DNA from: Actinomyces ruminicola
GTDB taxonomy: Bacteria > Actinomycetota > Actinomycetes > Actinomycetales > Actinomycetaceae
DNA length: 64,000 nt
NCBI RefSeq assembly: GCF_900103885.1
Contig: NZ_FNIM01000007.1
Span: 62,001 to 126,000 of the forward strand
Direction of reading: 5' to 3'
Both the position numbers and the translations under genes were made by a program. How positions within the stretch are numbered: position 1 is the first letter of the stretch; every line of letters starts with the position of its first letter. This document shows, one piece after another, positions 5,587 through 24,360 of this stretch. A model generated the notes under the pieces. That model was not told where the DNA came from, did not search any database, and was given only the letters and a program-made list of their open reading frames with translations.

Positions 5587-8500
5587 CTAATCTCGTGACA
5601 AGATTGCGTTGATGCGGCGGAAGTCGGATTCGCGGTCGCGGGTGCGGAAGGGGAGCTCGTAGACGTAGGTTACGCCGGAGCCGGGATGGGTGTGGGTGCG
5701 CTCGTCCAGCGGCATGTCGGCGTCCGTCTCTGGGCGCTTGCGCTTTTCCCACGCCTGCCGCACCGGCGTGGGCACCTGACGCCCATTGGCGTCGTAAACA
5801 TAAGGCTGCTTACTCTTGCTGGCAGCGTGATCGTTGTCGTAGAGCACCGCGAACTGCGTGCGATAGATCGTGCACAGATCCTCGATCGGGACCCCAAGCA
5901 TGATCGCCACCATCACGTCGACCTCCGCCTGCGCGTTACGACGGTCCTCCGCACGACGGAGGGGAACGTCGGGCGTCCAGACCGGCCCTACCGGGCGCTC
6001 ATCGTAGCGCTCCAGAATCGGCCCATCCTCAAGGAACGCCTGGTCCCAGCACGCGGCCCACAGGTCGGCGTAGGCGTCGGTCAGGCAGTTCAGACGGAGG
6101 GTTCGAAGGGTGGCGCGGATTGCGAGTGGGTGCGATCGTGGTGGTAAGGGAATACGCTCGAAGTCTTGGTTGATGATGTCATTACGGTTCCTCGAACGTA
6201 CTTGAAAATCGGCAAGAAGCGACGAAGAGACAGCGGCGATCAGGGGTAGGGACGGTGTGTCGGTCAGACTCGTCGAGTAGATCGGATTAACGTGCGCGGC
6301 GCCGGGTGGGAGCATAGCCGGGATCAGCGTCCGCTCGCCGGTGTTGGCCGCCATACGGCGCCAGGCGATGCGGTAGTGGTCGCGGGCGGAGGTGGTGCCC
6401 CAGTGAGTGTAGAGGCGATCGTAGGCGGCGCGGTCGCCAGCAGGCTTGTACTGGGTGACCGGCTGCGCATCCGCAGGCAGGGCCTCGAAGTCGGTCGGAG
6501 TCCAGTCTTGGTTGTGCTTCATCGTCTCATTCGGCTGCTTGTACAGCGGCGTGGAAACATGCAGGTGCGGACCCTGCAGGATTGCGTCTTCCCATGAAGC
6601 TCGGCCCCACTCCTTGACGAAGCGGCCCTTCTCAAAGTCTGCTGTCTCGTGCCAACCGGCGGAGAACTCAAGGCCGAGCGACCCAATGCGCTGGCTACGT
6701 GACAGCGTTTCCAGAGTACGCGCGGCCGCCGAGTTGACCGTGGAGACCATCGGCGTAGAGCGCCAGTCATCCGCTTCGGTCACCGCCTGCCAGCTCCGAA
6801 GCGTGGAATTGTCGACCCGCTGGATGCGAGAGGCATGCGGGCGGAGATCCCAGGTGCCCGTGTGCGGGTCCTTGAATCCTGGCTCCTCGCCGGAGCCGTC
6901 GTGCTTGAGAGATCGGGTAACCGTGTTGGGGTGATATAGCGAAACGGCATGGAGAAATCGAGGTGATTGTTCTGAATTATAAATATGGATGCCGTAAATC
7001 TTGTGGTGCTCAATGTCGAACAGAAGTAACTCGTTGATAAATCGCCAGTGCCTCCGCAGGTGCCGATACGCGGCCGCACGTAGTTCTAGGGTCTTGGCAT
7101 CCGTGAAGTGAGTCTCCATGTGGATGAGCCCCGAGGTGCCGCTGGGCTTCTGGTGCTCCCACACCTGGCACATGAAGGCGCGATACAGGTCGGGCTGCCC
7201 GCTCAGCAGCGGGTATACGGTCGAATCGCTGAGCAACTCGGACTGCACGATCTGCTCGGCGGTGCCGTCGATTACCAGGTTGCGTATGCCCAGGCGCGCC
7301 AGAGTTTCCGGGCGGCGCGCCCGCTTCGCCGCCTCCGAGGGCTTCTTAGACAGCGACCACCACGGGTCGCCCTCCGCCAGGAGTGCGTTCACATCGGTGC
7401 GGGGCCGCACCCACGGCGGGTTACCCACCTGCAGGTCAAAGCCGCCGCGCGCAAACACGGTGGCGAAGTCCAGCTCCCAGTGGAAGAAGCCCTGCTCGTC
7501 CGCGACCCGCTTGGCCACGCGCAGCCACGGCTGCTGCTCAAGCACCATCTCCACCTTCCGCGCACCGGCGAACTGGAGGTCCCAGGCCTCCGTCTCCTCC
7601 AGGCCCTCCCAGGTGGTCGCCTCGGCAAGCGGCACCGCGTTGGCGGGGGCGGCGTCGCCCGCGTAACCGAGCGTGTGCTCCAGCGTCTCCAGCCACTCCT
7701 CCAGGCTCGGCGGCTTAACGTCGGTGGTCAGCGGCCAGTACCACAGCGCGCACCACGCATCCATTACCAGCCGCAGGCGCCGGTAGGCCGAATCCGGGCT
7801 GGCCAGGTAGGCCTCGATCTGCTCCCGCGTCACCGCCGAACCCGCACCCGCCGGGGCCTGCCGGCCCCACAGGTCGATGCGGCGGGAGGCCTCCGCCTCC
7901 GCCACCCGCAGACGCCGCAGCGTCAACTCCCACAGCACCTCCACGCGCCGCGCCAGCGCCGTCAGCCGCTTGACCTGCTTATTCGGCTTGTCCTTCGGTG
8001 CCTTGGTGATGTCCTTGCGCCACTCCTTCAGAGCCTTCAAGCGCCCGGCGTCCACCAGGTCGCGCACCTGCTTGGGCACCTCCGTGGCCGAGCCCCAGCC
8101 GCCGGCGGGCAACAGGAAGTGATGCACCCGGTCGGTCACATCCAGCGCCTGCCCCAAGCGGTGCCCGGAGGCGGACGCGGCAGGCTCACCCCGGCCTGCG
8201 GGCAGACCTCCCGGGCCGGCCGGGCTCGACGGACCATCCGGGCCGACGCCGTCGGCACCCGCCGCACCATCAATGGCCTCGGCCACCTGCCGCAGCGGCT
8301 CGGCCACCGGCGTGGTGCTCAACCACTTCCGCTTGCTGCCCAGGGCACTGACCGGATACAGGGCCCGCCTGGCCCCAACCAGTGAATTGCCGCGCCGCAG
8401 CCGCAGGCCGAACCACGGCGCCGCCAGACCCTCCACCATCGTGTCCAGCCACAGGGAAATCTCCGCCAACTCCACCGCCGTAGCATTGAGGTCCACGCCG

Positions 8501-10404
8501 TAGACCTGATGCAGCGCCAGGTATGCCTTCACCTTGGCCAGCTCGCGCGGACGCTCCTCCGGGTCCACGCGCACGCCCAGCTCCCGCTCCCGGCGGGACA
8601 GGTACTGCTCGGCCAACTGGCGCACCGCCTCAATCGCGAAGGCGCCCGACCCCAGCGCCGGCTCACACACCGTCAGGTGCAGCACCTCCTCCGCCGTCGT
8701 CACCTGGCCGCCCTGATCCAGCAGCTCGGCCAGGGCCTGCTGCACCGTGAAACGCGTCAGCACCTCCGGGGTGTAGAAGGACGCCGACCGCTGCCGATCC
8801 CGGCCCGAGAGCCGGAACACGAACTCGCCCGGCTCATAGGTGACGTTGCGGCGCTCACCCGTCACCTCATCCTCCACCGTCACGAAGTCCTTCTCATCCA
8901 GGCCCTCCATGACATCCTCGGGCACCACCCACGAGCCCTTGGAGGCGTCCCCGCCCGGCGCCACCTCCCACAGGCGCTCGGTGGCGAAGGAACCCGTGTA
9001 ACTCATCAGCCCCTCATAGACGGCGCCCAACTGGTTGATACCCAACTCCACATAGGAGATGAAGCCCCGGCCCGTCCGGCCGTTCTCCCTGGTCAGCAGC
9101 AGGTGCCGCAGCACCCGCAGCAGGGCCGCATTACCCAGCCCCACCTCATCAATCAGCGCCGTCGCCTCCGGGCGGAACAGGTCCGCCCGCATCGGCTGGA
9201 ACACCAGGCCGTCGAAGGCCTCCTCCTGATCCGGCGTAACCCCCGTGTTCAAACCCGAATCCACCAGCCGGAACAGCAGCCCCAGGGACTGGTAGATGTG
9301 CGTGCCCGCCTGCGCCGTCTCCTCATGCAGCTCCCGCAGCGTGAGCTCCCGCAGTCGCTCCAGGCCGTAGCCGGCGTCGTACTCGGCCGCACCCACCGGC
9401 AGCACGCCCAGCTCCGGGCTCGCCTCCGCATACAGCAGGAAGATGATCCGGTAGATGTACCGCAACGACTGCAAAGCCAGCGGCTGCGCCTGCTCCTGGC
9501 CCAGCGGTTCCAGGTCCCGGGCGGCCCGACGCCGCACCACCTCGTTCGCGATGATCTCAATGGAGGAGCGCACGCCCTCACGCAGGTCCTTGGACACCCC
9601 CACCGTGTGGGCGGCCGAATCCGCGAGCGTGCCCGACCACCAGGTCTCACCCTCCGGAGTCGGCAGCAGGGAGCGGGCGTCCAGGCAGGTCAGTGCCCGC
9701 TCCACCTCACCGCCCCGCTTGGCGTCATTGCGCTCCACCACCAGCTGCACATTCACCGCCAGCCAGCGGCCCTCCGGCCACCGCTCCTTCTCCGCCACCA
9801 GCGCCCAACGACCCGCCAGCACCAGGGCGAAGGCCGGGCCGTGCTCATCGGTCATCAGCGTGGACAACGCCCGCGCCACCGAAACCACCGGCTCGGCGCC
9901 CTCCAGGGCGGGGGCGTCCGGGTCCTCCAGGTCCACTGGCTCCCACGGCTCGGCCAGCGTGGCCGCATCCTTGACCAGCAGGTCCTCCACCGTGGCCGCG
10001 GGGCGGGCCCGCAGCAGCGCCAAGGGCGCCGGGCCCTCATCACCGACCGGCCGCACCAGCGTCACCGGGCCCCGCTCAACCAGCCGGAACTCGGCGGAGG
10101 CGAAACCCAGAATCTCCCGCAGCGCGGCGTCCAGCTCCTCGGCGGCCCGCAGGACGGCGGCGGTCGGCGTGGCGGCGTCGTCGGGCAGGGCCGCCAGCAG
10201 CTCCTCCAGGTGCGGGCGCGCCGAACGGAAGCGGCTGCGCGGCGTGGACACCGGGGCGGCGCCGTCGGAGGGCTTCTCCAGCTCCTCCCACTCCTTGCGG
10301 CGCTCCAGCACGCGCGCCAGGAAGGACTCCTTCGTGGCGTCGGTGGTGAAGTAGTGCTCGCTGATCCAGTCCTCGCCCACTACGAGTGCATCCGACGCCG
10401 CCAT
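5587..10404 (-). CDS. N6-adenine DNA methyltransferase, DISARM DrmMI-like
   Basis: A 1605-aa protein. An N-terminal region of about 550 residues with no clear nuclease motif precedes SAM motif I (EPALGSGAFAIEA, near residue 580). The catalytic NPPW motif (DLQVGNPPWVRPRTD) lies near residue 990, after a long insertion that includes a low-complexity Gly/Pro/Ala stretch. The C-terminal part probably holds target recognition. Such very large N6 methylases occur as DrmMI (class 1 DISARM), PglX (BREX) and type IIG enzymes. Direct coupling to a SNF2 helicase (TAATG overlap) and the absence of PglZ or BrxC genes favour DISARM. It should methylate host DNA so that the system spares it. The long plus-strand open frames opposite are mirror images of its GC-rich codons. 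Confidence 0.75.
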   Translation of the reverse strand: MAASDALVVGEDWISEHYFTTDATKESFLARVLERRKEWEELEKPSDGAAPVSTPRSRFRSARPHLEELLAALPDDAATPTAAVLRAAEELDAALREILGFASAEFRLVERGPVTLVRPVGDEGPAPLALLRARPAATVEDLLVKDAATLAEPWEPVDLEDPDAPALEGAEPVVSVARALSTLMTDEHGPAFALVLAGRWALVAEKERWPEGRWLAVNVQLVVERNDAKRGGEVERALTCLDARSLLPTPEGETWWSGTLADSAAHTVGVSKDLREGVRSSIEIIANEVVRRRAARDLEPLGQEQAQPLALQSLRYIYRIIFLLYAEASPELGVLPVGAAEYDAGYGLERLRELTLRELHEETAQAGTHIYQSLGLLFRLVDSGLNTGVTPDQEEAFDGLVFQPMRADLFRPEATALIDEVGLGNAALLRVLRHLLLTRENGRTGRGFISYVELGINQLGAVYEGLMSYTGSFATERLWEVAPGGDASKGSWVVPEDVMEGLDEKDFVTVEDEVTGERRNVTYEPGEFVFRLSGRDRQRSASFYTPEVLTRFTVQQALAELLDQGGQVTTAEEVLHLTVCEPALGSGAFAIEAVRQLAEQYLSRRERELGVRVDPEERPRELAKVKAYLALHQVYGVDLNATAVELAEISLWLDTMVEGLAAPWFGLRLRRGNSLVGARRALYPVSALGSKRKWLSTTPVAEPLRQVAEAIDGAAGADGVGPDGPSSPAGPGGLPAGRGEPAASASGHRLGQALDVTDRVHHFLLPAGGWGSATEVPKQVRDLVDAGRLKALKEWRKDITKAPKDKPNKQVKRLTALARRVEVLWELTLRRLRVAEAEASRRIDLWGRQAPAGAGSAVTREQIEAYLASPDSAYRRLRLVMDAWCALWYWPLTTDVKPPSLEEWLETLEHTLGYAGDAAPANAVPLAEATTWEGLEETEAWDLQFAGARKVEMVLEQQPWLRVAKRVADEQGFFHWELDFATVFARGGFDLQVGNPPWVRPRTDVNALLAEGDPWWSLSKKPSEAAKRARRPETLARLGIRNLVIDGTAEQIVQSELLSDSTVYPLLSGQPDLYRAFMCQVWEHQKPSGTSGLIHMETHFTDAKTLELRAAAYRHLRRHWRFINELLLFDIEHHKIYGIHIYNSEQSPRFLHAVSLYHPNTVTRSLKHDGSGEEPGFKDPHTGTWDLRPHASRIQRVDNSTLRSWQAVTEADDWRSTPMVSTVNSAAARTLETLSRSQRIGSLGLEFSAGWHETADFEKGRFVKEWGRASWEDAILQGPHLHVSTPLYKQPNETMKHNQDWTPTDFEALPADAQPVTQYKPAGDRAAYDRLYTHWGTTSARDHYRIAWRRMAANTGERTLIPAMLPPGAAHVNPIYSTSLTDTPSLPLIAAVSSSLLADFQVRSRNRNDIINQDFERIPLPPRSHPLAIRATLRTLRLNCLTDAYADLWAACWDQAFLEDGPILERYDERPVGPVWTPDVPLRRAEDRRNAQAEVDVMVAIMLGVPIEDLCTIYRTQFAVLYDNDHAASKSKQPYVYDANGRQVPTPVRQAWEKRKRPETDADMPLDERTHTHPGSGVTYVYELPFRTRDRESDFRRINAILSRD

Positions 10405-13400
10405 TAGCGGTCCCCTTCCTTATCGAAGCCCTGCGGCACCACTACCAGCAGCGGTCGCACCAGCGTATGTGCGGGCAACTGCTGCTCCATCAGCGCATGC
10501 TCCGCCGCCACCGTCTGCCGCTGGGAACGCAGCTGCCGGTTCTGGATGAGGCGGCCCGCGTCGTCATCCCAGGAGTCCGCCCGCTGCGCCCAGGACTCCA
10601 CCCGGGTGCGCGCCTGCTCCCGGGCCGCCTGCACCGTCAGCGCCATCTGCTTCTCGGCCGCATCCACCGCCGGGGCGATAAGCGCCTCCAACAGCGCCGT
10701 ATCCGGGGCGCCGCCGGCATTGGTCAGCTCCCGCTCCACCCCCGCCGCAGCGAACATGGCAGCCGGGGAGCCATGCACCTGACCGATCGGCACCGCCTCC
10801 AGGGCCCGGCCCGCCTGCAGCTGCGCGCGGGCGGCGCCCAAGTCCAGGAATGGGAAGGCGGCGCTGACACTCACCAGGGAGATCGTGCGGCCCGCCAGGT
10901 TCGTGAGCGTGCCCAGCAGCAGCACCGTGGGCGACTCCACCTCCCCGTGCACCGCGAACACCGAGGAACGGCCCAGGCGGGCCAGCACCCGGTCACCCGC
11001 CCAGTCCAGCACCGGGTGCAGCGGGCCCAGGTAGTGGGCCTCTGGCCAGGAGGAGTCGGAGGAGTCCCGCAGCGCCTGCGCCAGCAGCGCCTTGCCCTTG
11101 CGCTGGCTGGTGGCCAGCAGCAGATGCTCCTGCACGTGCCGGTCCTGCAGGTAGGACTGCGGCAGCACCGCCAGGCGGGCGCGCAGGCCCGCGGGTGGCA
11201 CCAGCTCCACCACATGGTCCTCATGCTCCCGCCAGGAGACGCCACCGCCGCCGGTCTGCCCGTGCTCGGCCTCCTCCGGGCGCTCATACAGCTCGGTGAG
11301 GGCCTGGCGCAGGTAATCCACCTGGGAGTCATACAGGGTGGAGGTCGGCAGCGGGGTCGCGGCGCGTGCCGACGGCGAGGGCCCGGCGGCCGGGACGATC
11401 GGCGAGGCAGTGGCGGCGTCCGCGGAGAGCGCGGCGGGCGACGACGCCGGGGGAGCGGCGGCGTCGGGGGCGGGGAGCACGGGCGGGACGGCGTCGGCTG
11501 GTGCGGGGAGGTCGTCGGTGGCTCCCGAACGGGCCTGGTCGGTGCCCGTCAGGGAGGCGAACAGTGCCGCCATCGGATCCAAATCCAGGGCCGCATCCGC
11601 GTCCGGCACCACCTGCTCGATGTCGGTGCCCTGCTGGAGGGCTTCGCGGATCGCCTTCTCCTCCTTCTCCCCGGAGTACAGGCCCATCAGGGAAGCGGCG
11701 TCGCCCAGCGCCCGGTGCGCCTGATCCTCCTTCTCCATCAGCCGGGTCAGTACGCGCACATCGCCGGAGAAGTGGGCGTCGGAGGGGTCCAGCAGCAGGG
11801 TGGTGATCTGCGGGCTGGTCTCCTGCCCGTAGCGGTCGATGCGGCCGTTGCGCTGCTCGATCCGGATCAGCGACCAGGGGATGTCGTAGTGGATCAGCTC
11901 ATGGCACTGGGCGTGCAGGTTCACGCCCTCCGAGGCGACGTCGCCGGTGACCAGCACGCGCAGCGGCGTGTGCGCCTGCCGGAACTCCTCAACGATCTCC
12001 TGCTGCTCCACGTCCGACAGGCCACCGTGCATCACCCGCACCGCCCCGTCGCGCAGGCGCAGGTCGCGCCGGAGGTTCTCTGCCAGCCAGTTCAGGGTGG
12101 CCACGCGCTCGGCGAAGACCACCGCCCGCGCCGTCGAACGGGGGCCGACGCCGATGCGGTGCAGTTCCTTCAGCAGCGCCTGGTACTTGCCCGACGCGGT
12201 GGTGTTGGCCGCCTCGGCCAGCTTCCGCAGGCTGCTCAGGGCCTGGGACTGCTCGGAGGATTCCAGTGCCTCCTCGCCGGCGGCCCGGGAGCGACGCCGT
12301 GCCATGCGCTCGTCGATCGTCTGAATCAGCGCCGCCGGGGAGGACAGGAAGGCCTTCGCCAGTGTCCAGGAGAACAGGGCATTGCCGCCGTTGCCCGCGG
12401 TGCCCGGGTCAGTAGCACCCGGGGCGGAGGCGCCGTCGGGGCGGTGCAGCCAAGTGCGCGAGAGCTCACTGGCCACCGCGTCCTCCGCCGGGGAGGGCGC
12501 CACGAGCCGGTTGACCGGGGTCAACCGCTCCTTCCAGCGGTCGCCCACGACGTCGCGCACCTCCTCGGAATGGCGGTGACGGCGGATCACCAGCCGACGC
12601 ACCGCCTCCTGATCCAGCGAGCCGTCCGCGCGGACCGCCGTCGGCTCCAGCAGGCGAATCAGCTCCGCGAAGGACTTCGGGTCCCCATTGTGGGGCGTGG
12701 CCGAGGCCAGGATCAGGGCGTCGGTCTGGCGCGCCAGGATGTCCGCCAGACGGTTGTTGAGCGTGCCCTTGTTAGTGACATTGTGCGACTCGTCAATGAC
12801 CACCGCATCCCAGCGCTGCTTGCGCAGGTGATTGAGGTAGCGGTCGGACTTGAGCGTGTCGATGGAGATGATCGCCCGGTGGTAGACGGAGAAGGGATTG
12901 CGGGTGGCCGGGATAGTGCGCCGCACCCGCTGAATCCCCACCGAGTCCAGACGCACGAAGGGCAGGGCGAAGCGCGACCACATCTCATGCTGCATCTGCT
13001 CCAGCACGTGCCGGGGCGTGACGATCAGAATCCGGTCCCCGCGGCCCCGGCGCACCAGCTCCGCCAGGATCATGCCGATCTCCAGGGTCTTGCCCAGGCC
13101 CACCGTGTCCGCCAGCAGGATGCGCGGGCGCAGGTTGGCCGGGTCCAGCGCCTGCCGGACGGCCGTGAGCTGGTAGGGGAGTGGATCGGCCAGCATGTCA
13201 CCCACCACCGCCAGCTCCGTGGAGCCGGCCGGCAGCGCCGTCTTGCGCAGCGTCGCCTCCAACCACAGGCGCGAGAGCCGATGCCGGGTAGAGGTGTCCG
13301 CGACCACGTGGGTGCGACGCGGGTCCACGGGCTCGATGCGGTCGATCCCGGCGGAGAACTGGGCGGTGACGTCCTGCACCAGCTCCGACAGCCCCTGCAC

Positions 13401-13622
13401 CGTGACCAGGGTGCCGTCGGAGTTGGCGGAGACCTGGGTGACCAGCCAGTCCTCGTCGCGCACCCGCACCACCGACCCCGGGGCGACATCGAGCGACGGC
13501 GGGGGAGCGGGAGCGGACGGCGCGGCGGTGGGGGAGGCGGAGGAAGGGGCGGCGCTCGCGGGAGTGGCGCCGAAGCGGGCGGCGCTCGCGGCGGTTGGGT
13601 CGGAGGGGGTGGCCGTGGTCAC
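10404..13622 (-). CDS. SNF2/RapA-type helicase, DISARM DrmD-like
   Basis: About 1072 aa. Walker A is LLADTVGLGKTLEIGM (near residue 170), the DExx box is VVIDESHNV (near 277), motif III is ILASATPHN, and the C-terminal helicase lobe holds VLVTGDVASEGVNL and RIEQRNGRIDRYGQ (near 585). A Pro/Ala/Ser-rich linker splits the C-terminal third. A SNF2-like helicase directly ahead of a giant adenine methylase is the drmD-drmMI arrangement of class 1 DISARM. I prefer the GTG at 13622, with AGGA about 10 nt ahead; the frame stays open to an ATG at 13721, but that extension is low-complexity. DrmA, DrmB and DrmC are not seen in the window, unless the partial helicase at the left edge is part of the set. 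Confidence 0.72.
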   Translation of the reverse strand: MTTATPSDPTAASAARFGATPASAAPSSASPTAAPSAPAPPPSLDVAPGSVVRVRDEDWLVTQVSANSDGTLVTVQGLSELVQDVTAQFSAGIDRIEPVDPRRTHVVADTSTRHRLSRLWLEATLRKTALPAGSTELAVVGDMLADPLPYQLTAVRQALDPANLRPRILLADTVGLGKTLEIGMILAELVRRGRGDRILIVTPRHVLEQMQHEMWSRFALPFVRLDSVGIQRVRRTIPATRNPFSVYHRAIISIDTLKSDRYLNHLRKQRWDAVVIDESHNVTNKGTLNNRLADILARQTDALILASATPHNGDPKSFAELIRLLEPTAVRADGSLDQEAVRRLVIRRHRHSEEVRDVVGDRWKERLTPVNRLVAPSPAEDAVASELSRTWLHRPDGASAPGATDPGTAGNGGNALFSWTLAKAFLSSPAALIQTIDERMARRRSRAAGEEALESSEQSQALSSLRKLAEAANTTASGKYQALLKELHRIGVGPRSTARAVVFAERVATLNWLAENLRRDLRLRDGAVRVMHGGLSDVEQQEIVEEFRQAHTPLRVLVTGDVASEGVNLHAQCHELIHYDIPWSLIRIEQRNGRIDRYGQETSPQITTLLLDPSDAHFSGDVRVLTRLMEKEDQAHRALGDAASLMGLYSGEKEEKAIREALQQGTDIEQVVPDADAALDLDPMAALFASLTGTDQARSGATDDLPAPADAVPPVLPAPDAAAPPASSPAALSADAATASPIVPAAGPSPSARAATPLPTSTLYDSQVDYLRQALTELYERPEEAEHGQTGGGGVSWREHEDHVVELVPPAGLRARLAVLPQSYLQDRHVQEHLLLATSQRKGKALLAQALRDSSDSSWPEAHYLGPLHPVLDWAGDRVLARLGRSSVFAVHGEVESPTVLLLGTLTNLAGRTISLVSVSAAFPFLDLGAARAQLQAGRALEAVPIGQVHGSPAAMFAAAGVERELTNAGGAPDTALLEALIAPAVDAAEKQMALTVQAAREQARTRVESWAQRADSWDDDAGRLIQNRQLRSQRQTVAAEHALMEQQLPAHTLVRPLLVVVPQGFDKEGDR

Positions 13623-13775
13623 GGGGACGATCCTAGGAAGCACCGTCGGCCAGGAGGGCGGGACGGACAAGTGTGTTCGAGGTGTGATTCGCGCTTGCCC
13701 GCCCGGCCGTGCGGCGGGCACAATAGTGGGGAGCCACCCGGCTGGGACCCGGATGACTCCCCGATGCGACCGGTC

Positions 13776-14696: not shown

Positions 14697-16400
14697 GTGG
14701 ACACGAGCGGGGCCGGGAGTCCATCGGAGGCATCGCAGGAATCGAGTGAACCCCCTGTGCAGGCGGCCGCGGCGGTGACGCCGTCGTCGGCGTCGGATAC
14801 GGGAGCGGAAGCACCGGCGCCTAATGCTGCCGCCGAATTGACGCTGCTGGAGGCCGCCCCCGGCGTCGCCGTCCTACTCGCCGACACGGTGCCGGACGGC
14901 TGGGAGATCGAGGCCTTCAATCTGGGGAAGCGGGCCAACACCGAGATCACCGATGCCTTCAGCAACGTCGCCGGTGCCCTCAACCTCGTTGCGCAGGGAG
15001 CGCAGGGGCTCGTCTCCGCGCAGGGACTGGTGCGACTCGCACCGGAGACTCTGCGCAACCTGCGCACCATGAATATGATCGTCAAAGACGGCTACAACCT
15101 CGGCGTCCTGACCCGCGGTGGTAAATTCGCGGCCCAGGTTCGCTGGGTCCCCGCCACCGGAGTTCAAGCCGCCACGGTGGCCGCGAGTGCCGGCCCGGCC
15201 TTCGCCCTGATGGCCATCAGTGCGCAGCTGACCTCGCTGTCCAAGCGGGTCGACCAGAATCTAGAACTGACTCGCGATGTCCTCCAAACCCTGCTGCGGG
15301 ACCACTGGAACGCTCTCAGCGGCATGTATGACACCGTCGTCGGCGCTATTGATGAGGTGCGGGAGATCGGGGCCGTCACGCCGCGGGTATTTGAACCAAT
15401 TGCGCACCTCGAGTCTGATCTTCGCGCCGAGTACAAGCACTTCGACGGCCGCCTGCAAAGTCACCTAAAGGCGCTGGGTGGGACCGCTGCCGAGCGGCGC
15501 GACTACCTGCGGGACCACGCCCAGGAGATCGCCGCGGACCTCCAAGGACTCGTCATGTCCGCCAACGCCCACTACGGGTACCAGTTGCTCGCAGCGGCCG
15601 AGATCGCCTCCGACAGTGAGCGCAGCGAGCAGGATGAGCAACTCATGCGGTACCGAGCCGAACGGATACCGGCCGAGCGGGCCGAAACCATGGCGAGGAT
15701 CGCCCAGGTGCTCGGTCGGCTCGACGCGTACTGCCACCTGGCCGAGCTAACGGATGGACATGGCGCCGACCTCGCGCGTGTTGGCGCCAGAGTCGGCGAG
15801 CTGGCGGGGCAGGTCTCCGGGCGCGTCCCGGCGCTGCGCCGGGCGCGGCGGGGCGCGAGCACCGAGCAGATCGTCGCGGCCATGACCCAATACGTGGCAG
15901 CGCTGTGTGTCGGTGCCTATGAGGCCCCCGCGGCCCTGGAACCGAACCTCAAGGTCATTGAGGATGACGACGCCGTGGCGCACGTGCTCGACATTCTCAG
16001 GTGGGTGCTGCCCAATGGTGAGTCCCTGATCGCTCTGGTGGGATTCGCCAACGCGTCGGTGGGAGATATCGGCCTCAAGGGCGGATACCTGGGGGTGACG
16101 CCCACGCGGTTCTTCCTCGCCTCGCGCGGAGCGCTCGCCAGGGACGGGCTGATCGAACACGACTTTCCGCTAGCGGACGTGCGCTATGTCCGGTACCGGC
16201 AGGGCGGAGGCCGGCCGCGCCTAGACATCATTACCAAGGATGAGAACCTCGCAGCGCACTTCGCCGACTGGGCGGCCTCGGGCGATCCCGGCGAGCGGCT
16301 GCGGCGCGTAGCCGACGTGCTGATGACGGCCGTGAACCTGCCCGCGGAGGAGCGGCGATCCGACCCGCTGCTGGAGGCGACCGCTGCTCTCCCGTCATAG
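14697..16400 (+). CDS. Unrecognised 567-aa protein with C-terminal PH-like domain
   Basis: It starts at GTG with GAGAGGGGA just ahead. Residues 1-45 are Ser/Ala/Pro-rich and probably disordered. A small hydrophobic stretch (AATVAASAGPAFALMAISAQ, near 160-180) is followed by long helices with coiled-coil character (LSKRVDQNLELTRDVLQTLL and beyond). The last 110 residues (LIALVGFANASVGDIGLKGG, then GVTPTRFFLASRGAL and PLADVRYVRYRQGGG) look like a bacterial PH domain. There is no enzymatic motif. It stands alone between the HTH gene and hipBA inside the defence island. A role in membrane sensing or damage is possible, but no function can be assigned. Confidence 0.6.
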   Translation: MDTSGAGSPSEASQESSEPPVQAAAAVTPSSASDTGAEAPAPNAAAELTLLEAAPGVAVLLADTVPDGWEIEAFNLGKRANTEITDAFSNVAGALNLVAQGAQGLVSAQGLVRLAPETLRNLRTMNMIVKDGYNLGVLTRGGKFAAQVRWVPATGVQAATVAASAGPAFALMAISAQLTSLSKRVDQNLELTRDVLQTLLRDHWNALSGMYDTVVGAIDEVREIGAVTPRVFEPIAHLESDLRAEYKHFDGRLQSHLKALGGTAAERRDYLRDHAQEIAADLQGLVMSANAHYGYQLLAAAEIASDSERSEQDEQLMRYRAERIPAERAETMARIAQVLGRLDAYCHLAELTDGHGADLARVGARVGELAGQVSGRVPALRRARRGASTEQIVAAMTQYVAALCVGAYEAPAALEPNLKVIEDDDAVAHVLDILRWVLPNGESLIALVGFANASVGDIGLKGGYLGVTPTRFFLASRGALARDGLIEHDFPLADVRYVRYRQGGGRPRLDIITKDENLAAHFADWAASGDPGERLRRVADVLMTAVNLPAEERRSDPLLEATAALPS

Positions 16401-16558
16401 CTGCCGGTCGGTCGCCTCGCACGCACGGCAGCGGCGCGGAGGCAGCGCAAGGAGATGGCAGAGGCGCCGCGTTAGGCCGGCAAGGCCGGGTGTGAGCCTC
16501 CGGACGGCGCTGGCCTTTACGGGGCATTACGGCGATTTTGGCCGCCACATACTGCTAA

Positions 16559-16580
16559 TATGGCGATCATGCACGCCATA
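16559..16580 (+). promoter_or_regulatory. Probable HipB operator
   Basis: TATGGCG-N8-CGCCATA is a perfect inverted repeat ending directly before the hipB ribosome binding site AGGAGG. Its shape (two arms separated by 8 nt) matches the TATCC-N8-GGATA operators known for E. coli HipB, with different inner bases. Confidence 0.55.
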
Positions 16581-16591
16581 AGGAGGTGTAC

Positions 16592-16879
16592 ATGCCCGGC
16601 TACCGGATCAATCGGCAGATGACCGCCTTCGGCGAGCACGTCCGTGGCTGGCGCATGGTGTTGGGGCTGACCGCCCAACAGGTCTCCGAGCGGGCCGACA
16701 TCAGCCGCGACACCCTGCGCAAGATCGAACGCGGCGATCCCACCGTCTCCTTCGGCGCCGTCGCCCAAGTGCTGCGCGCCCTGGGCGTCCTCGACCAGAT
16801 TGTCGACGCCGTCGACCCGCTATCCACAGACATCGGCCGACTGCGCGCCGGAAACCTGACGAAGCGGCGTGCCCGATGA
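16592..16879 (+). CDS. hipB: HipB-like antitoxin, XRE-family HTH regulator
   Basis: A 95-aa protein with FGEHVRGWRMVLGLTAQQVS, ERADISRDTLRKIERGDPTV and SFGAVAQVLRALGVLDQIVD, a classic Cro/C1 HTH as in HipB. ATG 16592 is preceded by AGGAGG at 5 nt; a GTG 6 nt earlier lies within that site. The last 4 nt overlap hipA (ATGA). It should bind the inverted repeat just upstream, repress the operon and hold the HipA kinase inactive. Confidence 0.85.
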   Translation: MPGYRINRQMTAFGEHVRGWRMVLGLTAQQVSERADISRDTLRKIERGDPTVSFGAVAQVLRALGVLDQIVDAVDPLSTDIGRLRAGNLTKRRAR

Positions 16880-18123
16880 CCGACGTCGAAGTCCTTCTCG
16901 ACACCGAATCGAAGCCGCAGCGCGTAGGGACCGCGCACTTCACCCGTTCGCGCGGTCAGGTTTCCACCACTTTCCTCTACGACCCCACATATCTGGCGTC
17001 TGGAGGCCCCAGCATCGACCCCTCCTTACGGCTTGATTCGGGCGTGCAGTACAGCCCGGATCTGCTGCGAGCCTTTGCGGACACCGCCCCAGACCGGTGG
17101 GGACGCAATCTGATTGTCAAGGCCGAACGCATCCGCGCCCGGGAAGCGAACCGTACCCCCCGTCGCCTGGACGAGGTCGATTACCTCCTCGGCGTCAGCG
17201 ACAACACTCGTCAGGGTGCTCTGCGCTTCCGCCTGCTTGGCCAGGAAGAGTATCTGGGCGAGCCCTCCACCGTGCCCCGGCTCGTTTCCCTGCCTCACCT
17301 CCTCACTGCGGCCGACCAGGTGCAAGCGGATGATGATCCGGCCGCCGCCATCAAGCAACTCCTCGACACCGGCACCACCGGCCTAGGAGGCGCTCGCCCC
17401 AAGGCCTCCGTGAGACTGGACGACGGTGGCCTCGCAATCGCCAAATTCCCGCATGCATCCGACCGGTGGAATGTCATGGCGTGGGAAGCTGTCATGCTCG
17501 ACCTCATGCAGGAAGTCGGGATCCGTTGCCCACAGCGGCGGCTGGTCGGTGTGGGGGAGCGCGGTGTACTCGTCCTGCGCAGGTTCGACCGATCCCATCT
17601 CAACCACCGGATCGGCTACATCAGTGCCATGACCGCAACTCAGGGGAAGGACGGTGAGCAGCAGGACTACCTCGACGTCGTCGACGCGATCCGCGACCTG
17701 TCCCGCTCTCCACGTGCCGACCTCCGCGAACTCTTCGTGCGTGTCGTGTTCTCCGTTGGTTTCGGCAACACAGACGATCATCTGCGCAACCACGGCTTCC
17801 TCATGGATCGGGGGTCTTGGCGCCTCAGTCCTGTATTCGACGTCAACCCCAATCCCGAGCTTGCTGCCAGTCGAGCGACGTCTATCGTTGGCGCCGATGT
17901 GTTCCCGGATGAAGCGGAGGCCTTGTTGCCACTTGCTGAGGACTGTGGCCTGAACAATGCGGCGGCTCGGGAGGCGATGGCTCGTGTTGCTCGCCTGGGT
18001 GAGTCTTGGCGCGACCGTGCTCGCGCCAGCCGGATTCCTGAGCACGAGATCACCTTCATGGCTGATGCTATTGCCCCGCGTATCGAGGCGCTTACCGCCG
18101 TCGCCAACCAGGAGCACGCATGA
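16876..18123 (+). CDS. hipA: HipA-family serine/threonine kinase toxin
   Basis: A 415-aa protein. The N-terminal HipA domain includes FADTAPDRWGRNLI. The nucleotide-binding region has GLGGARPKASV and LAIAKFPHASDRWN. The kinase core carries NTDDHLRNHGF (catalytic Asp near 300) and SPVFDVNPNP (metal-binding Asp near 330). HipA kinases phosphorylate targets such as glutamyl-tRNA synthetase and halt growth. The length is normal and the catalytic residues are present, so it looks intact. It overlaps hipB upstream and the GmrSD-like gene downstream by 4 nt each, which makes a three-gene translationally coupled unit. Confidence 0.9.
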   Translation: MTDVEVLLDTESKPQRVGTAHFTRSRGQVSTTFLYDPTYLASGGPSIDPSLRLDSGVQYSPDLLRAFADTAPDRWGRNLIVKAERIRAREANRTPRRLDEVDYLLGVSDNTRQGALRFRLLGQEEYLGEPSTVPRLVSLPHLLTAADQVQADDDPAAAIKQLLDTGTTGLGGARPKASVRLDDGGLAIAKFPHASDRWNVMAWEAVMLDLMQEVGIRCPQRRLVGVGERGVLVLRRFDRSHLNHRIGYISAMTATQGKDGEQQDYLDVVDAIRDLSRSPRADLRELFVRVVFSVGFGNTDDHLRNHGFLMDRGSWRLSPVFDVNPNPELAASRATSIVGADVFPDEAEALLPLAEDCGLNNAAAREAMARVARLGESWRDRARASRIPEHEITFMADAIAPRIEALTAVANQEHA

Positions 18124-20276
18124 TCACCGAACTCGCGATCCCGCAGGACCTCTTCGCCCTCACCATGCGCCTGGACGCACCGCTCTTCCAACGTCCCTAC
18201 GTGTGGAACCGGGAGGATCAGTGGGCGCCCCTGTGGGAGGACGTCCGTGGCCTCGCCGAGGCCTGGCTCGGCCCTCACGTGCCCGGCCCCGGCCACCGGC
18301 CCGCAGAACCTCACTTCCTCGGCGCCGTCGTCCTCCAGGACCGCCAGACCTCCTACCAGGAGATGCGCGCGGCTACCATCATCGACGGCCAGCAGCGTCT
18401 GACCACCCTGCAACTCCTGCTCCACGCCCTCGCCGACGTGCTGGCCGCGCGCGGCCTGGACGCGCTCGCGGCCTCGGCTGCCCGCCTGACCCGAAATGAC
18501 GACGCCACCGCCGCCCGCCTGGAGGACGCATTCAAGGTATGGCCCACCAACCGCGACCGCGGGGCCTACACCGCCGTCATGCTTGCTCGGGATCCAGCCG
18601 AGATCCCGGCGGCGCACCGCGAATCACCCTTCGCCCAGGCCGACGCCTACTTCCGCAGCGTCATGGGCGAGTGGCTGGCCGGAGTCGGCGAGGGCAATAA
18701 GCAGGACACCGACGCACTGGCGAATCGGGCAGCGGCCCTGCTCGGCGTCGTCACCCGCGGCCTGCGGCTGGTCATCATCCGCCTGGGCGCCGATGACGAC
18801 GCCCAGGCCATCTTCGAGACCCTCAACGCCCGCGGCACGCCGCTGACCGCGATGGACCTGATCAAGAACTACCTGTTCCAGAAGCTCGACCCGCACGCCG
18901 CCGAGACTCAGGAGCTGTACGACCGCTACTGGAGTCGCTTCGAGACGCCGTTCTGGGAGCAGGAGATCAGTACGGGCCGCGTGAAGCAGGCGCGCGCCGT
19001 CGCCTTCCTCGGCTGGTGGCTGGCTGCCCGCACGCGCGCCGTCATTCCTGCGAGGACTACCTTCTCCGCCTTTAAGCGCCACACCCTCGCCGGCGGCGAC
19101 GAGACGGCTGTCCTTGCTGACCTTTCTGCCGCAGCGCAGCGCTACGAAGCCCTCGACGCCGCCTCCCACACCCGGCACGGCGAACTCGATCCACTCGCCA
19201 TGTTCAACTACCGCGTTGACGTGCTTGGCCTGGACGTGCTCAAGCCGCTGACCATCTGGCTGCAGGACCCCGTCGGCGGCGGCGCGCCCGCCGTGCCCGA
19301 CGATCAACGCCGTCGGCTCCTTGCCGCCGTTGAGAGCTGGATCGTGCGCCGCGCCCTGGTCAAGGAGGCCTCCACCGGGATGAACCGGTTCGTCGTCGAG
19401 CGGCTCCTGCGGGCGGCGAGCGCCGAGCCCGACCGCATGGGTGAGCGGGTTGAGGCGCTGCTGGCGGCGCAGACCGCCTCCGTCTCCTACTGGCCCGATG
19501 ACGAAGAGGTCCGCGCAGCACTGGCCACTGAGCGCATCTACCGGACGATGGCGCAGGCCCGCGTCCGCATGGTCCTTGAGGCCATTGAGGACCGCCGGCG
19601 CGGCTACTCCGACGGGCATCGCCGCGCCGAGGCCCCCGTCGTCCGCGGCACCTGCACGATCGAGCACCTCATGCCGCAGCAGTGGCGCCTGAACTGGGAT
19701 GAAGGCGCCGACGAGGCCACCGCCGCTGAGTGTGACCACCTGGTACACACCCTCGGAAACCTCACGCTCGCCACCCAAGGCCTGAATTCCTCCCTGTCCA
19801 ACGGTTCCTGGGAGGCCAAGCGGGCAGCGCTGGACACCACCACCGGCCTGCTGACCACCCGCGACGTGCTGCGTGAGCATCCGGAGGCATGGACCGATGA
19901 CGACATTCGCGAGCGCACCGCGGTGCTGACCGAGGAGATCCTCGCCATCTGGCCGGTTCCTGCGGGGCATGTCCACCGCGTCCCGCAGCGGGCACTCAGC
20001 GTCAACAATGCGACGATGAAGGACCTGCTGGAGGCGGGCCTGCTGGCGGCCGGGGATGAGCTCGTCGGCGTCGCTCGTGATGGGCGGACGGTCCAGGGCG
20101 TCGTGGACGCGGCTGGGAGGCTGATGCTTGATGACGTGGCGTACGCCTACCCGTCGAAGCCTGCGAGCCGAGTGCGCGGTACCAGCGCGAACGGCTGGAC
20201 CTTCTGGCACCTGAGGAGCTCCGACGGCCCCACTCTGGATGATCTGCGAGCCCGGCTGCTCACGCCGAGTGAATGA
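18120..20276 (+). CDS. GmrSD-type restriction protein (DUF262-DUF1524) with RAMA-like tail
   Basis: A 718-aa protein. DUF262 (GmrS-like, ParB-type NTPase) motifs are FQRPYVWN near the start and IIDGQQRLTTLQLLLHAL, plus FETLNARGTPLTAMDLIKNY. DUF1524 (GmrD-like HNH nuclease) is TIEHLMPQQW followed by HTLGNLTLATQGLNSSLSN. The last 90 residues (LLEAGLLAAGDELVGVARDG to the end) resemble a RAMA domain, a module linked to modified-DNA systems. GmrSD-type proteins cut modified phage DNA (type IV restriction), and this fused form looks complete. The start overlaps hipA (ATGA), so restriction and the HipBA toxin module share one transcript. Confidence 0.85.
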   Translation: MITELAIPQDLFALTMRLDAPLFQRPYVWNREDQWAPLWEDVRGLAEAWLGPHVPGPGHRPAEPHFLGAVVLQDRQTSYQEMRAATIIDGQQRLTTLQLLLHALADVLAARGLDALAASAARLTRNDDATAARLEDAFKVWPTNRDRGAYTAVMLARDPAEIPAAHRESPFAQADAYFRSVMGEWLAGVGEGNKQDTDALANRAAALLGVVTRGLRLVIIRLGADDDAQAIFETLNARGTPLTAMDLIKNYLFQKLDPHAAETQELYDRYWSRFETPFWEQEISTGRVKQARAVAFLGWWLAARTRAVIPARTTFSAFKRHTLAGGDETAVLADLSAAAQRYEALDAASHTRHGELDPLAMFNYRVDVLGLDVLKPLTIWLQDPVGGGAPAVPDDQRRRLLAAVESWIVRRALVKEASTGMNRFVVERLLRAASAEPDRMGERVEALLAAQTASVSYWPDDEEVRAALATERIYRTMAQARVRMVLEAIEDRRRGYSDGHRRAEAPVVRGTCTIEHLMPQQWRLNWDEGADEATAAECDHLVHTLGNLTLATQGLNSSLSNGSWEAKRAALDTTTGLLTTRDVLREHPEAWTDDDIRERTAVLTEEILAIWPVPAGHVHRVPQRALSVNNATMKDLLEAGLLAAGDELVGVARDGRTVQGVVDAAGRLMLDDVAYAYPSKPASRVRGTSANGWTFWHLRSSDGPTLDDLRARLLTPSE

Positions 20277-20300
20277 GGCGGGTGGGCCTTGGCAGTCAAA

Positions 20301-20438
20301 AGTGTCCATCGGTGACCACTTTGAGTGACGGCCTGCGTGTTGTGCTGGGAGCAAAATGGCTTCATGATGAGGAAAACTACGCGTACGCCGATCGCCCCGT
20401 GAGCCCTTATTCGGTCAAAGCGGTCACCGATGGACACT
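20301..20438. repeat. MITE-like element with 24-bp inverted termini
   Basis: The ends at 20301-20324 and 20415-20438 are inverted copies matching at 23 of 24 positions (left end begins AGTGTCCATCGGTGACC). The 138-bp unit contains no gene. Such a structure is typical of a miniature inverted-repeat element moved in trans by an IS transposase. It lies directly after the gmrSD-like gene at the right edge of the defence island. No clear target duplication is visible. Confidence 0.65.
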
Positions 20439-20762
20439 CGTTTCCTGGATCGCGGCGCGGAAGCCGGTTCGGTTGGTACCGCGGCGACACGTGGACGCGC
20501 GACGGACATCGTCACTGAGTACGGGCGGGGCAGATCCTCGGCGGTTCGCTCGCGTTCTGAAGGGCTCGCCCGTGTCCTTGGTGGACCCCGTCAGGCGCGT
20601 CCGCCTCTCCAGCCGGCTCAACACCGAAGCGACGATCCCGCCACCCCACCTGCGCACCCCGGACTCACACAACCGGGCCTAATGCTGTAGGAGCGCGCCG
20701 TGCCTGACTAAGCGCGTCCTGAGGCACCGTCGGCCGTGTCACCAGGCTGCCCGGGGCGCACC
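20439..20762. other. Intergenic stretch, no gene seen
   Basis: No supported coding sequence or RNA. It separates the convergent restriction gene and acyltransferase gene. Confidence 0.35.
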
Positions 20763-21323
20763 TCATCCCTGCCAGAGGTTCTGCAGGTACTCCGGCGGGC
20801 ACGGGCGCCCCTCCCGGATGACGCCGGGATTGCCGATGACTGTGGACCCGGACGGGACGTCGGTGTTGACCAGCGCCCCCGGAGCGATGAGGACGTCGTC
20901 GCCGATGGTGATCCCGCCGACGATGACAGCATTCGTGCCGATCCACACGCGGTCTCCGATGGTGGGGGTGCCCGCGCGGCGTCCGGAGGGCACGGCGCCG
21001 ATCGTCACCCCCGTGGCTATATTGCAGTTGCTGCCGATCACGGCGGCGGGGTTGATGATGACGCGACCGCGGTGCCCTATGTAGAAACCGGGCCCGATCC
21101 TGGTGGACCAGGGGATCTGGATGAATGTCGTCGCCGACAGGTGGCTGAGAGCCGCTCGGAACGCCTTCCGCGCTAGCGGTGAGTCGGCGTTCTGTGCATG
21201 CCGGAAGGTCCACAGGTAGCTCAGCACCTTGCGATCGCCTAGACGGGCCGTCATCGGTACGTCGGTGCGGCCGAAGTAGCGGAAGAGGTCTGAGCGGAAG
21301 AGCCGTTGCGCGGTCGAGGTCAT
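20763..21323 (-). CDS. Left-handed beta-helix acyltransferase, serine acetyltransferase-like
   Basis: A 186-aa protein. Hexapeptide repeats fill the C-terminal half: IGPGFYIGHRGRVIINPAAV, NCNIATGVTIG, TPTIGDRVWIGTNAVIVGG and DDVLIAPGALVNTDVPSGST, ending in the GNPG loop of the CysE/WbbJ acetyltransferase group. The N-terminal 75 residues are helical, as in CysE-like enzymes. It is short for CysE and lacks a cysteine-biosynthesis neighbour, so the acceptor may be a surface glycan rather than serine. The ATG at 21323 has GAGGAG at a good distance upstream. It is divergent from nrdD. Confidence 0.75.
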   Translation of the reverse strand: MTSTAQRLFRSDLFRYFGRTDVPMTARLGDRKVLSYLWTFRHAQNADSPLARKAFRAALSHLSATTFIQIPWSTRIGPGFYIGHRGRVIINPAAVIGSNCNIATGVTIGAVPSGRRAGTPTIGDRVWIGTNAVIVGGITIGDDVLIAPGALVNTDVPSGSTVIGNPGVIREGRPCPPEYLQNLWQG

Positions 21324-23704: not shown

Positions 23705-23971
23705 GTGGCGGACTGGATCGTCGAGTTCACTCCTCGCGCCGAGAATTCGCTGCGCCGACTCGATCGCAGCGTTCAGGTGCGTGTGGTCGGCAAACTGCGA
23801 GAGATCCAGGAGGCTGACGATCCGCGGAGTTTCCTGAAACCGATGACTGGCCCGCTTAAGGGACAATTCCGGCTCCGGGTCGGGGATTACCGGGTGGTCA
23901 TCGACGTTCAGGCTGAGCGCTGCGTGATCCTCGCGATCGATGTCGGCCATCGTTCCACGGTCTATCGGTGA
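23705..23971 (+). CDS. RelE-family toxin-like protein
   Basis: An 88-aa protein with VEFTPRAENSLRRLDRSVQV, then FLKPMTGPLKGQFRLRVGDY and RVVIDVQAERCVILAIDVGH, ending in STVYR. This is the standard RelE arrangement, including G-x-F-R-x-R-x-G-D-Y-R. GTG start with GGAGGGG just ahead. Unusually, no antitoxin gene precedes it; the likely partner is the RHH gene about 150 bp downstream, the reverse of the common order. The pair sits between nrdD and nrdG. Confidence 0.82.
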   Translation: MADWIVEFTPRAENSLRRLDRSVQVRVVGKLREIQEADDPRSFLKPMTGPLKGQFRLRVGDYRVVIDVQAERCVILAIDVGHRSTVYR

Positions 23972-24114
23972 GATCGCCGGGCCTGTTCGCGACTCGGTTG
24001 CAGAGGCGCCGTAGCGCCTGCCGTATCAGGGGTGGGGCCCGGCGCTCGGTCTAGGGAGCCCTGAGTCCCTCGCCTTGTGGGCCGGGCTTGTCGGAAGCGA
24101 AGGTCGGCTCCTAT

Positions 24115-24134
24115 GCTGTAAACATGTCTACAGC
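24115..24134 (+). promoter_or_regulatory. Inverted repeat over the start of the RHH antitoxin gene
   Basis: GCTGTA-N8-TACAGC is a perfect inverted repeat that includes the ATG start codon and overlaps a possible -10 (TATGCT, 24113-24118). That layout suggests a leaderless transcript and autorepression by the ribbon-helix-helix product. Confidence 0.45.
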
Positions 24135-24360
24135 AGTTCTGAGCGTGCGGCTGCCGGAGGAACTCAAGCGTCGGCTCGATGACCTGGGGAGTCGGACCGG
24201 ACGCCCGGCGACGTTCTATGTGCGTGAGGCCGTTGAGTCCTACATCGATGACTTGGAGTACGCGTACACGCTGAAGACTGAAGCGGAGGCGGCCAGGCGC
24301 GGTGAGATCAGGACGCGCCGCCTCGATGAGATCGCAGCGAGCCTCGGACTCGATGACTGA
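24124..24360 (+). CDS. Ribbon-helix-helix antitoxin, RelB-like
   Basis: A 78-aa protein: TAVLSVRLPEELKRRLDDLG, then SRTGRPATFYVREAVESYID and DLEYAYTLKTEAEAARRGEI. This is the RHH fold with the acidic or amphipathic tail seen in RelB antitoxins that pair with RelE toxins. In most operons of this type the toxin gene overlaps the antitoxin stop; here that place is taken by the nrdG start. The preceding RelE-like gene is the probable partner. The ATG at 24124 lies inside an inverted repeat. Confidence 0.8.
   Translation: MSTAVLSVRLPEELKRRLDDLGSRTGRPATFYVREAVESYIDDLEYAYTLKTEAEAARRGEIRTRRLDEIAASLGLDD

Follow-up and report, generated by a model that had tools for sequence, protein, structure and literature searches.

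A hipBA pair joined to a GmrSD-type nuclease gene upstream of nrdD in Actinomyces ruminicola

A 64,000-nt stretch of Actinomyces ruminicola DNA (contig NZ_FNIM01000007.1, positions 62,001 to 126,000; hereafter the window) carries hipB, hipA and a gene for a GmrSD-type nuclease, gmrSD, arranged head to tail with 4-nt overlaps. The layout confirms a real three-gene operon, which is a new arrangement of known parts, a hipBA toxin-antitoxin pair being joined to a GmrSD enzyme. This arrangement appears to be undescribed, though narrow, as far as the literature was searched: no published description of HipA or hipBA joined to GmrSD, DUF262, DUF1524 or type IV restriction was found, most subscription journals and supplements lying outside the search. 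It is probable, in our judgement, that an ordinary hipBA pair and an ordinary GmrSD-RAMA gene were joined once, upstream of nrdD, and that the nuclease thereby gained HipB-controlled expression.

Layout and conservation of the operon

The first gene, hipB (16592-16879, + strand), encodes a 95-aa Xre-family antitoxin/repressor with HTH_31/HTH_3 matches above the Pfam cut-off. Its preferred start is the ATG at 16592, with AAGGAGG five bases ahead; a GTG at 16586 is an alternative upstream start. As in type II HipBA modules, this helix-turn-helix gene lies directly 5' of the kinase gene and overlaps it by 4 nt. The kinase gene, hipA (16876-18123, +), encodes a Ser/Thr kinase toxin of 415 aa, with Couple_hipA and HipA_C (E 4e-41) both above the Pfam cut-off. 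The motifs GLGGARPKA, IAKF, GNTDDHLRN and PVFDVNP, which we take to be those of the kinase, are all intact. HipB scored 47.3 bits against the curated cut-off of 71.65 bits of the NCBIfam model couple_hipB (TIGR03070); since this model represents the Y4mF subfamily, the miss touches subfamily assignment only.

The third gene, gmrSD (18120-20276, +), encodes a single-chain DUF262-DUF1524 nuclease of 718 aa with a C-terminal RAMA domain. An earlier note on this DNA had described 4-nt overlaps between the three genes, and its coordinates proved right, the sequence ATGA forming the overlap at the hipB/hipA junction and again at the hipA/gmrSD junction. hipA and gmrSD leave no gap between them, and gmrSD retains a Shine-Dalgarno-like AGGAG of its own. 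The final codons of hipA extend into this site and the start behind it, so that the nuclease would be translated off the hipBA message, through coupling, from its own site, or both. The three genes are presumably co-transcribed.

This layout is not due to chance, because a second species, G041, preserves the two overlaps and the three reading frames, with a protein identity of 94.7% for hipB, 94.2% for hipA and 83.7% for gmrSD. The ratio of non-synonymous to synonymous divergence (dN/dS) between the two carriers was 0.19 for hipA, 0.21 for gmrSD and 0.46 for hipB (nine changes), and both hipA and gmrSD look maintained by purifying selection, as judged from these ratios. Synonymous divergence was 0.05 in hipB, 0.16 in hipA and 0.44 in gmrSD (0.11 in nrdD), and DNA identity was about 0.975 across hipB and the first part of hipA and dropped to 0.78-0.89 in the body of gmrSD. 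hipA and gmrSD thus have distinct recent histories, which gives no sign of tight co-evolution.

A GmrSD-type nuclease with a RAMA domain

In Pfam searches, the gmrSD product matched GmrSD_N (DUF262; E 8.5e-32, 111.3 bits against a cut-off of 33.2) and GmrSD_C (DUF1524; E 3.6e-22, 79.2 bits against a cut-off of 23). Both domains passed their curated cut-offs within one chain, which is the domain composition of a type IV enzyme. A RAMA domain (PF18755, E 1.8e-17), absent from the earlier note, was found at the C-terminus. The motifs FQRPYVW, DGQQR and EHLMP are intact. We assume the first two to be significant as nuclease motifs, DGQQR being taken as a GmrSD family motif from an alignment made here. 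The third corresponds to EHxxP, described as the DUF1524 nuclease motif (PMC12707154), and RAMA is presented as a suggested, unproven reader of adenine methylation (6mA) (PMC11037411). From its domains and motifs, the enzyme probably cuts modified foreign or phage DNA.

The C-terminal part of such nucleases varies. In the congener G003, the nuclease (L029:7883-10267) has the same GmrSD body, and a stretch of about 185 aa replaces RAMA, hinting at a reader-domain exchange. A known reader was ruled out there, the stretch giving zero Pfam matches at E values up to 1. Two GmrSD-RAMA proteins (L034, L035) showed a further C-terminal match to DNA_binding_1 (alkyltransferase-like), below cut-off, and another GmrSD protein (L040) carries DUF7662 and no RAMA. 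On ten viral contigs (L269, L272, L274, L275, L277, L281, L282, L283, L289 and L292), a separate small RAMA-like open reading frame (ORF) lies near a GmrSD-like gene.

Predicted HipB operators in front of the operon

A palindrome scan revealed two putative HipB-type operators 5' of hipB, palindromic sites at this position being a feature of HipBA modules. The proximal one (16559-16580) is a perfect palindrome, TATGGCG-N8-CGCCATA, which begins exactly at the reported start of the locus, overlaps a TAATAT -10-like box and stops 11 bases short of the hipB ATG. The distal one (16528-16549; TACGGCG-N8-CGCCACA, 12 of 14 arm positions) is a weaker copy located 31 nt upstream. The same scan was applied to 19 hipB promoters, 17 from the genus and two from Rhodococcus plasmids, which include hipBA modules without a nuclease. 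The best two sites were exactly 31 nt apart in 18 of them (L102 being the exception), and the best score was reached by none of 500 shuffles in 17 promoters and by 1 and 7 shuffles in the other two. The shuffles preserved single-base composition only, the consensus came from the same set and the promoters are related, so these figures describe a conserved architecture rather than 19 separate observations. E. coli HipB is described as binding four TATCCN8GGATA sites cooperatively (PMC3920265, PMC3376134). The recurrence of the 31-nt pair in 18 of 19 hipB promoters makes it likely that HipB autoregulates the operon.

The proximal operator was the sole perfect palindrome match in the A. ruminicola genome. 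A wider HipB regulon was rejected, 17 sites with up to two mismatches being found in this genome against 14 for a reversed control pattern; among the sites listed, a pair 31 nt apart occurred in the hipB promoter only.

The earlier note had proposed that a HipB-like operator controls both the kinase and the nuclease. The operon layout, the HipB-type operators in front and the lack of a gap between hipA and gmrSD all agree with this putative control. Alternatively, the genes might simply be juxtaposed, gmrSD being driven by its own promoter in the 3' end of hipA, free of HipB. The AGGAG kept by gmrSD would fit such an independence, as would the DNA similarity to G003, which begins 11 bp before the gmrSD start codon and indicates that gmrSD arrived with little or no common upstream DNA. 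However, no intergenic space is left between the genes, and a scan of 16400-20800 found zero sigma-70-like sites. The separate promoter envisaged in the earlier note as a refutation therefore did not appear, but the scan, which covered one promoter type, found none before hipB either, and in an actinobacterium-like genome this null result is weak evidence on internal promoters. We hold an independently driven nuclease to be improbable.

History of the locus and decay of its genes

The genus was sampled through 49 genomes including that of A. ruminicola, all of which carry nrdD. At E 1e-20, gmrSD was found in four: our genome, G041, G003 and G027. The intact trio is present in the first two, and G025 and G024 carry decayed versions of it at the same site. 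The DNA around or upstream of nrdD was viewed in 18 genomes, where its content is variable. Besides the two intact and two decayed loci, gmrSD stands alone in G003, without hipBA, less than 0.7 kb upstream of nrdD in the same orientation and with a C-terminus devoid of RAMA; a broken gmrSD, also without hipBA, lies beyond nrdG in G027; a 79-nt match to the end of gmrSD is all that was found in G034; and 11 loci gave no hipBA or gmrSD match (tblastn, E 1e-4).

The two decayed loci are informative. In G025, hipA has lost about codons 37 to 265, and the ATGA junction remains, followed by the initial 33 nt of gmrSD fused directly to a 65-nt piece from close to the gmrSD 3' end (20198-20262 of the window), 6 and 7 nt being shared at the two deletion joints. 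These remnants indicate that the operon had been present and was then lost. In G024, hipA carries different internal deletions and gmrSD DNA was not found; the difference between the deletions makes it probable that each of the two lines lost its kinase and nuclease independently. Most simply, the trio would be ancestral to the four species, given these remains. In both relics hipB is intact, with a dN/dS of 0.09 between them (3 non-synonymous and 11 synonymous changes).

Nine genus loci of the close type, these two included, carry a broken hipA (L101 to L106 and L132 to L134), and seven of them retain the 95-codon hipB as an orphan antitoxin. The exceptions are G009, whose hipB has 74 codons, and G045, where the start region is shifted. 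A full hipB was present at all eight genus loci with a full-length close-type hipA (63% identity or more). It would appear that hipA decays first and hipB last, the order expected for a genuine toxin, although hipB, being smaller, is also less easily hit.

This pattern could be explained if hipBA were an addiction module that protects a costly nuclease and the surrounding island, shared transcription being incidental. The survival of hipB after hipA, in 7/9 broken-hipA loci, is expected if HipA is toxic, and close hipBA relatives are also plasmid-borne: the closest plasmid HipA relatives are three from Rhodococcus (65-67% identity), and the two plasmid regions opened carried no GmrSD. Addiction would nevertheless predict retention, whereas G025 and G024 lost the nuclease along with hipA despite the module, and hipB is again the smallest deletion target. 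We regard such stabilisation as a real, if minority, possibility, and one that is compatible with a single joining under HipB control. A further reading of the locus is a defence operon with two effectors governed by HipB, in which nuclease and kinase would be freed together and the antitoxin, as their common safety catch, would be retained alone after their loss; this seems rather doubtful.

No second origin of the arrangement in the samples searched

At class level, 394 genomes were searched for GmrSD at E 1e-40. At least 19 besides our own contain it, a lower bound because two first-look candidates were scored per genome. In the fetched stretches, HipA was near none of the 21 GmrSD loci outside the carriers (the 19 of the class, G003 and G027), the upstream DNA of one (G176) being ended by a contig edge. 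Conversely, GmrSD and RAMA models found nothing in 41 other wide HipA stretches (L050 and L095-L134), which comprise 40 from the class and genus and the second hipA of our genome; two are the relics of G025 and G024. These derive from 29 other class genomes with a HipA match at E 1e-20 (up to four candidates scored each), 23 of which were fetched wide and six scanned with short flanks of up to 1.5 kb, and from 18 other genus genomes (own and G041 apart), 17 fetched wide and G028 omitted; second hipA copies of G041, G024, G375, G231 and G124 stand outside the count. Among the short HipA loci of class and genus (n=44), GmrSD occurred in our genome and G041 only.

The presence of an overlapping third gene as a common trait of hipBA was also rejected, after a same-strand ORF scan of 33 other intact or near-intact HipA copies. 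In five (L095, L111, L119, L122 and L124), an ORF of at least 80 aa starts between -20 and +30 nt from the hipA stop, that of L119 beginning with TTG and overlapping hipA by 4 nt. Their third-position G+C excess was at most 0.07 and Pfam gave zero matches at E 0.01 (one ORF per locus, the second of L122 being left out), so they were judged not to be coding.

Beyond the class, a collection with one genome per species (84,980 species) was scanned with an alignment of 11 GmrSD-RAMA proteins. This led to at least 360 bacterial and archaeal relatives, and 148 were confirmed on viral contigs. The best 80 loci of each set were examined, 73 genome and 69 viral loci including 1.5 kb or more of DNA upstream of the match. 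A HipA model built from the HipA stretches described above matched, at E 0.01, none of the 80 genome loci and none of the 80 viral loci, and the GmrSD_N model matched all 160. The HipA model is sensitive enough for this purpose, since it detected 12 of 12 HipA regions from the same GmrSD-bearing genomes (worst E 1.4e-12). HipA_C was above cut-off in 20/50 and 13/30 GmrSD-bearing genomes; it is common in them, yet not beside GmrSD in the stretches examined. The trio as a recurring system was therefore rejected, no second origin being found across the genus, class, species-collection and viral samples. In published surveys, the main text on 1,239 Hip kinases contains no word beginning with "restriction" or "nuclease" ("endonuclease" was not searched; PMC8262856), and that on 389 GmrSD neighbourhoods does not contain "HipA" (PMC4619093).

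Weak HipB-model matches without hipA were seen in 2 of the 21 GmrSD stretches (L032, L045), and weak to moderate ones in 8 of the 160 best genome and viral loci. Xre-type helix-turn-helix ORFs without hipA were noticed near GmrSD-like genes at L032:7745-8017 (-), L152:3746-4285 (+) and L135:9765-10238 (-), their HipB-model matches being weak to moderate.

The earlier note had suggested counting how often hipBA precedes GmrSD-like genes and had named uniqueness to this genome as a refutation. The intact trio of G041 removes that objection, the arrangement occurring in more than one genome; in our samples it is nevertheless confined to one lineage. The idea of a restriction module with a built-in guard is not supported, there being no HipA at the other GmrSD loci and no GmrSD at the other HipA stretches, and G003 keeping gmrSD beside nrdD without hipBA. 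In such a module HipB would sense loss or infection and free both nuclease and kinase, the kinase providing a back-up arrest if restriction fails. In its favour are the tight tricistron under purifying selection in two species, the HipB-type predicted operators in front and the joint loss of both effectors in two relatives. Against this stand the lack of a second origin in any sample, the G003 nuclease occurring without hipBA within 0.7 kb of nrdD, and the absence of a nuclease from 39 of the 41 other HipA stretches, the remaining two being relics of this locus. We thus consider a guarded module unlikely.

Neighbourhood of the operon

The region upstream of nrdD was read as a variable defence island or hotspot. 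On the minus strand, 5587-13721 encodes a DrmD-like SNF2/DEAD helicase beside a 1605-aa type IIG/DrmMI-like methyltransferase, a DISARM-like pair. A 567-aa protein encoded at 14697-16400 (+) has zero Pfam, PADLOC and NCBIfam matches, and its relatives (50-86% identity) lie upstream of nrdD in several congeners. Relatives of at least one of these three proteins recur there in several congeners, in changing company. Between nrdD and nrdG, a ParE-like toxin gene and a ribbon-helix-helix gene (23705-24357, +) have relatives in some congeners.

A model for the joined operon

The likely single joining upstream of nrdD would have taken place head to tail, in the variable island, in an ancestor shared by a small set of species. 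HipB would bind the two operators, 31 bp or about three helical turns apart, and hold all three genes low, a co-repressor role for HipA being suggested by the E. coli system. If HipB were consumed or degraded, HipA and nuclease levels would climb together; HipA would then probably arrest growth through phosphorylation of a translation factor, and the nuclease would probably cleave modified foreign DNA. The benefit, if any, would be regulatory coupling rather than a designed guard, and the joining resembles a chance event in a defence hotspot more than a new immune design in wide use.

Several points weigh against this interpretation. Both genes look maintained in two species, which exceeds what a neutral accident needs; the fact that G025 and G024 lost both kinase and nuclease could mean that the two work together; and the junction is the tightest possible, so that a selected fusion is possible. 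In addition, judging from the Xre-type ORFs described above, a regulator of this type near a GmrSD-like nuclease is not unique to hipBA.

If shared control is real, a type IV nuclease would be placed under a toxin-antitoxin repressor, which would silence a dangerous enzyme that has no modification partner. As the evidence stands, the locus is of more value as an illustration of modules being joined and lost in defence islands, since two intact carriers and two relics can be compared at the same site. It shows, too, that overlapping genes alone are a poor basis for naming a new system when the arrangement does not recur in other lineages.

Comparison with known systems

The operon resembles hipBA of E. 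coli K-12 and its clade in having an Xre antitoxin gene 5' of a Couple_hipA and HipA_C kinase gene (PMC8262856) and several TAT-ended palindromic operators in the promoter (PMC3920265, PMC3376134). In contrast to E. coli, a third, unrelated nuclease gene overlaps hipA, the operator arms are longer (TATGRCG) and HipB has no C-terminal Trp. hipBST is likewise a three-gene Hip operon that starts with a helix-turn-helix gene (PMC8262856), but here the third gene encodes a nuclease and the kinase is unsplit, HipA being one 415-aa chain with both domains instead of separate HipS and HipT.

The nuclease is similar to BrxU-type single-chain GmrSD enzymes, with DUF262 and DUF1524 in one chain and the EHxxP motif, and additional C-terminal domains, DUF4357 among them, are described in the family (PMC12707154, PMC4619093). 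It differs from BrxU-type enzymes in the RAMA domain called here and in its location behind hipBA. Several of the PADLOC models HEC-06, mREase_IV and Orf5 match the nuclease over most of its length; these are single-protein models, silent on hipBA. Finally, in ptuXYZ a DUF262 protein also shares an operon with a toxin domain of toxin-antitoxin type, but PtuX has no DUF1524 and its toxin is a BECR-fold RNase, not HipA (PMC11980606).

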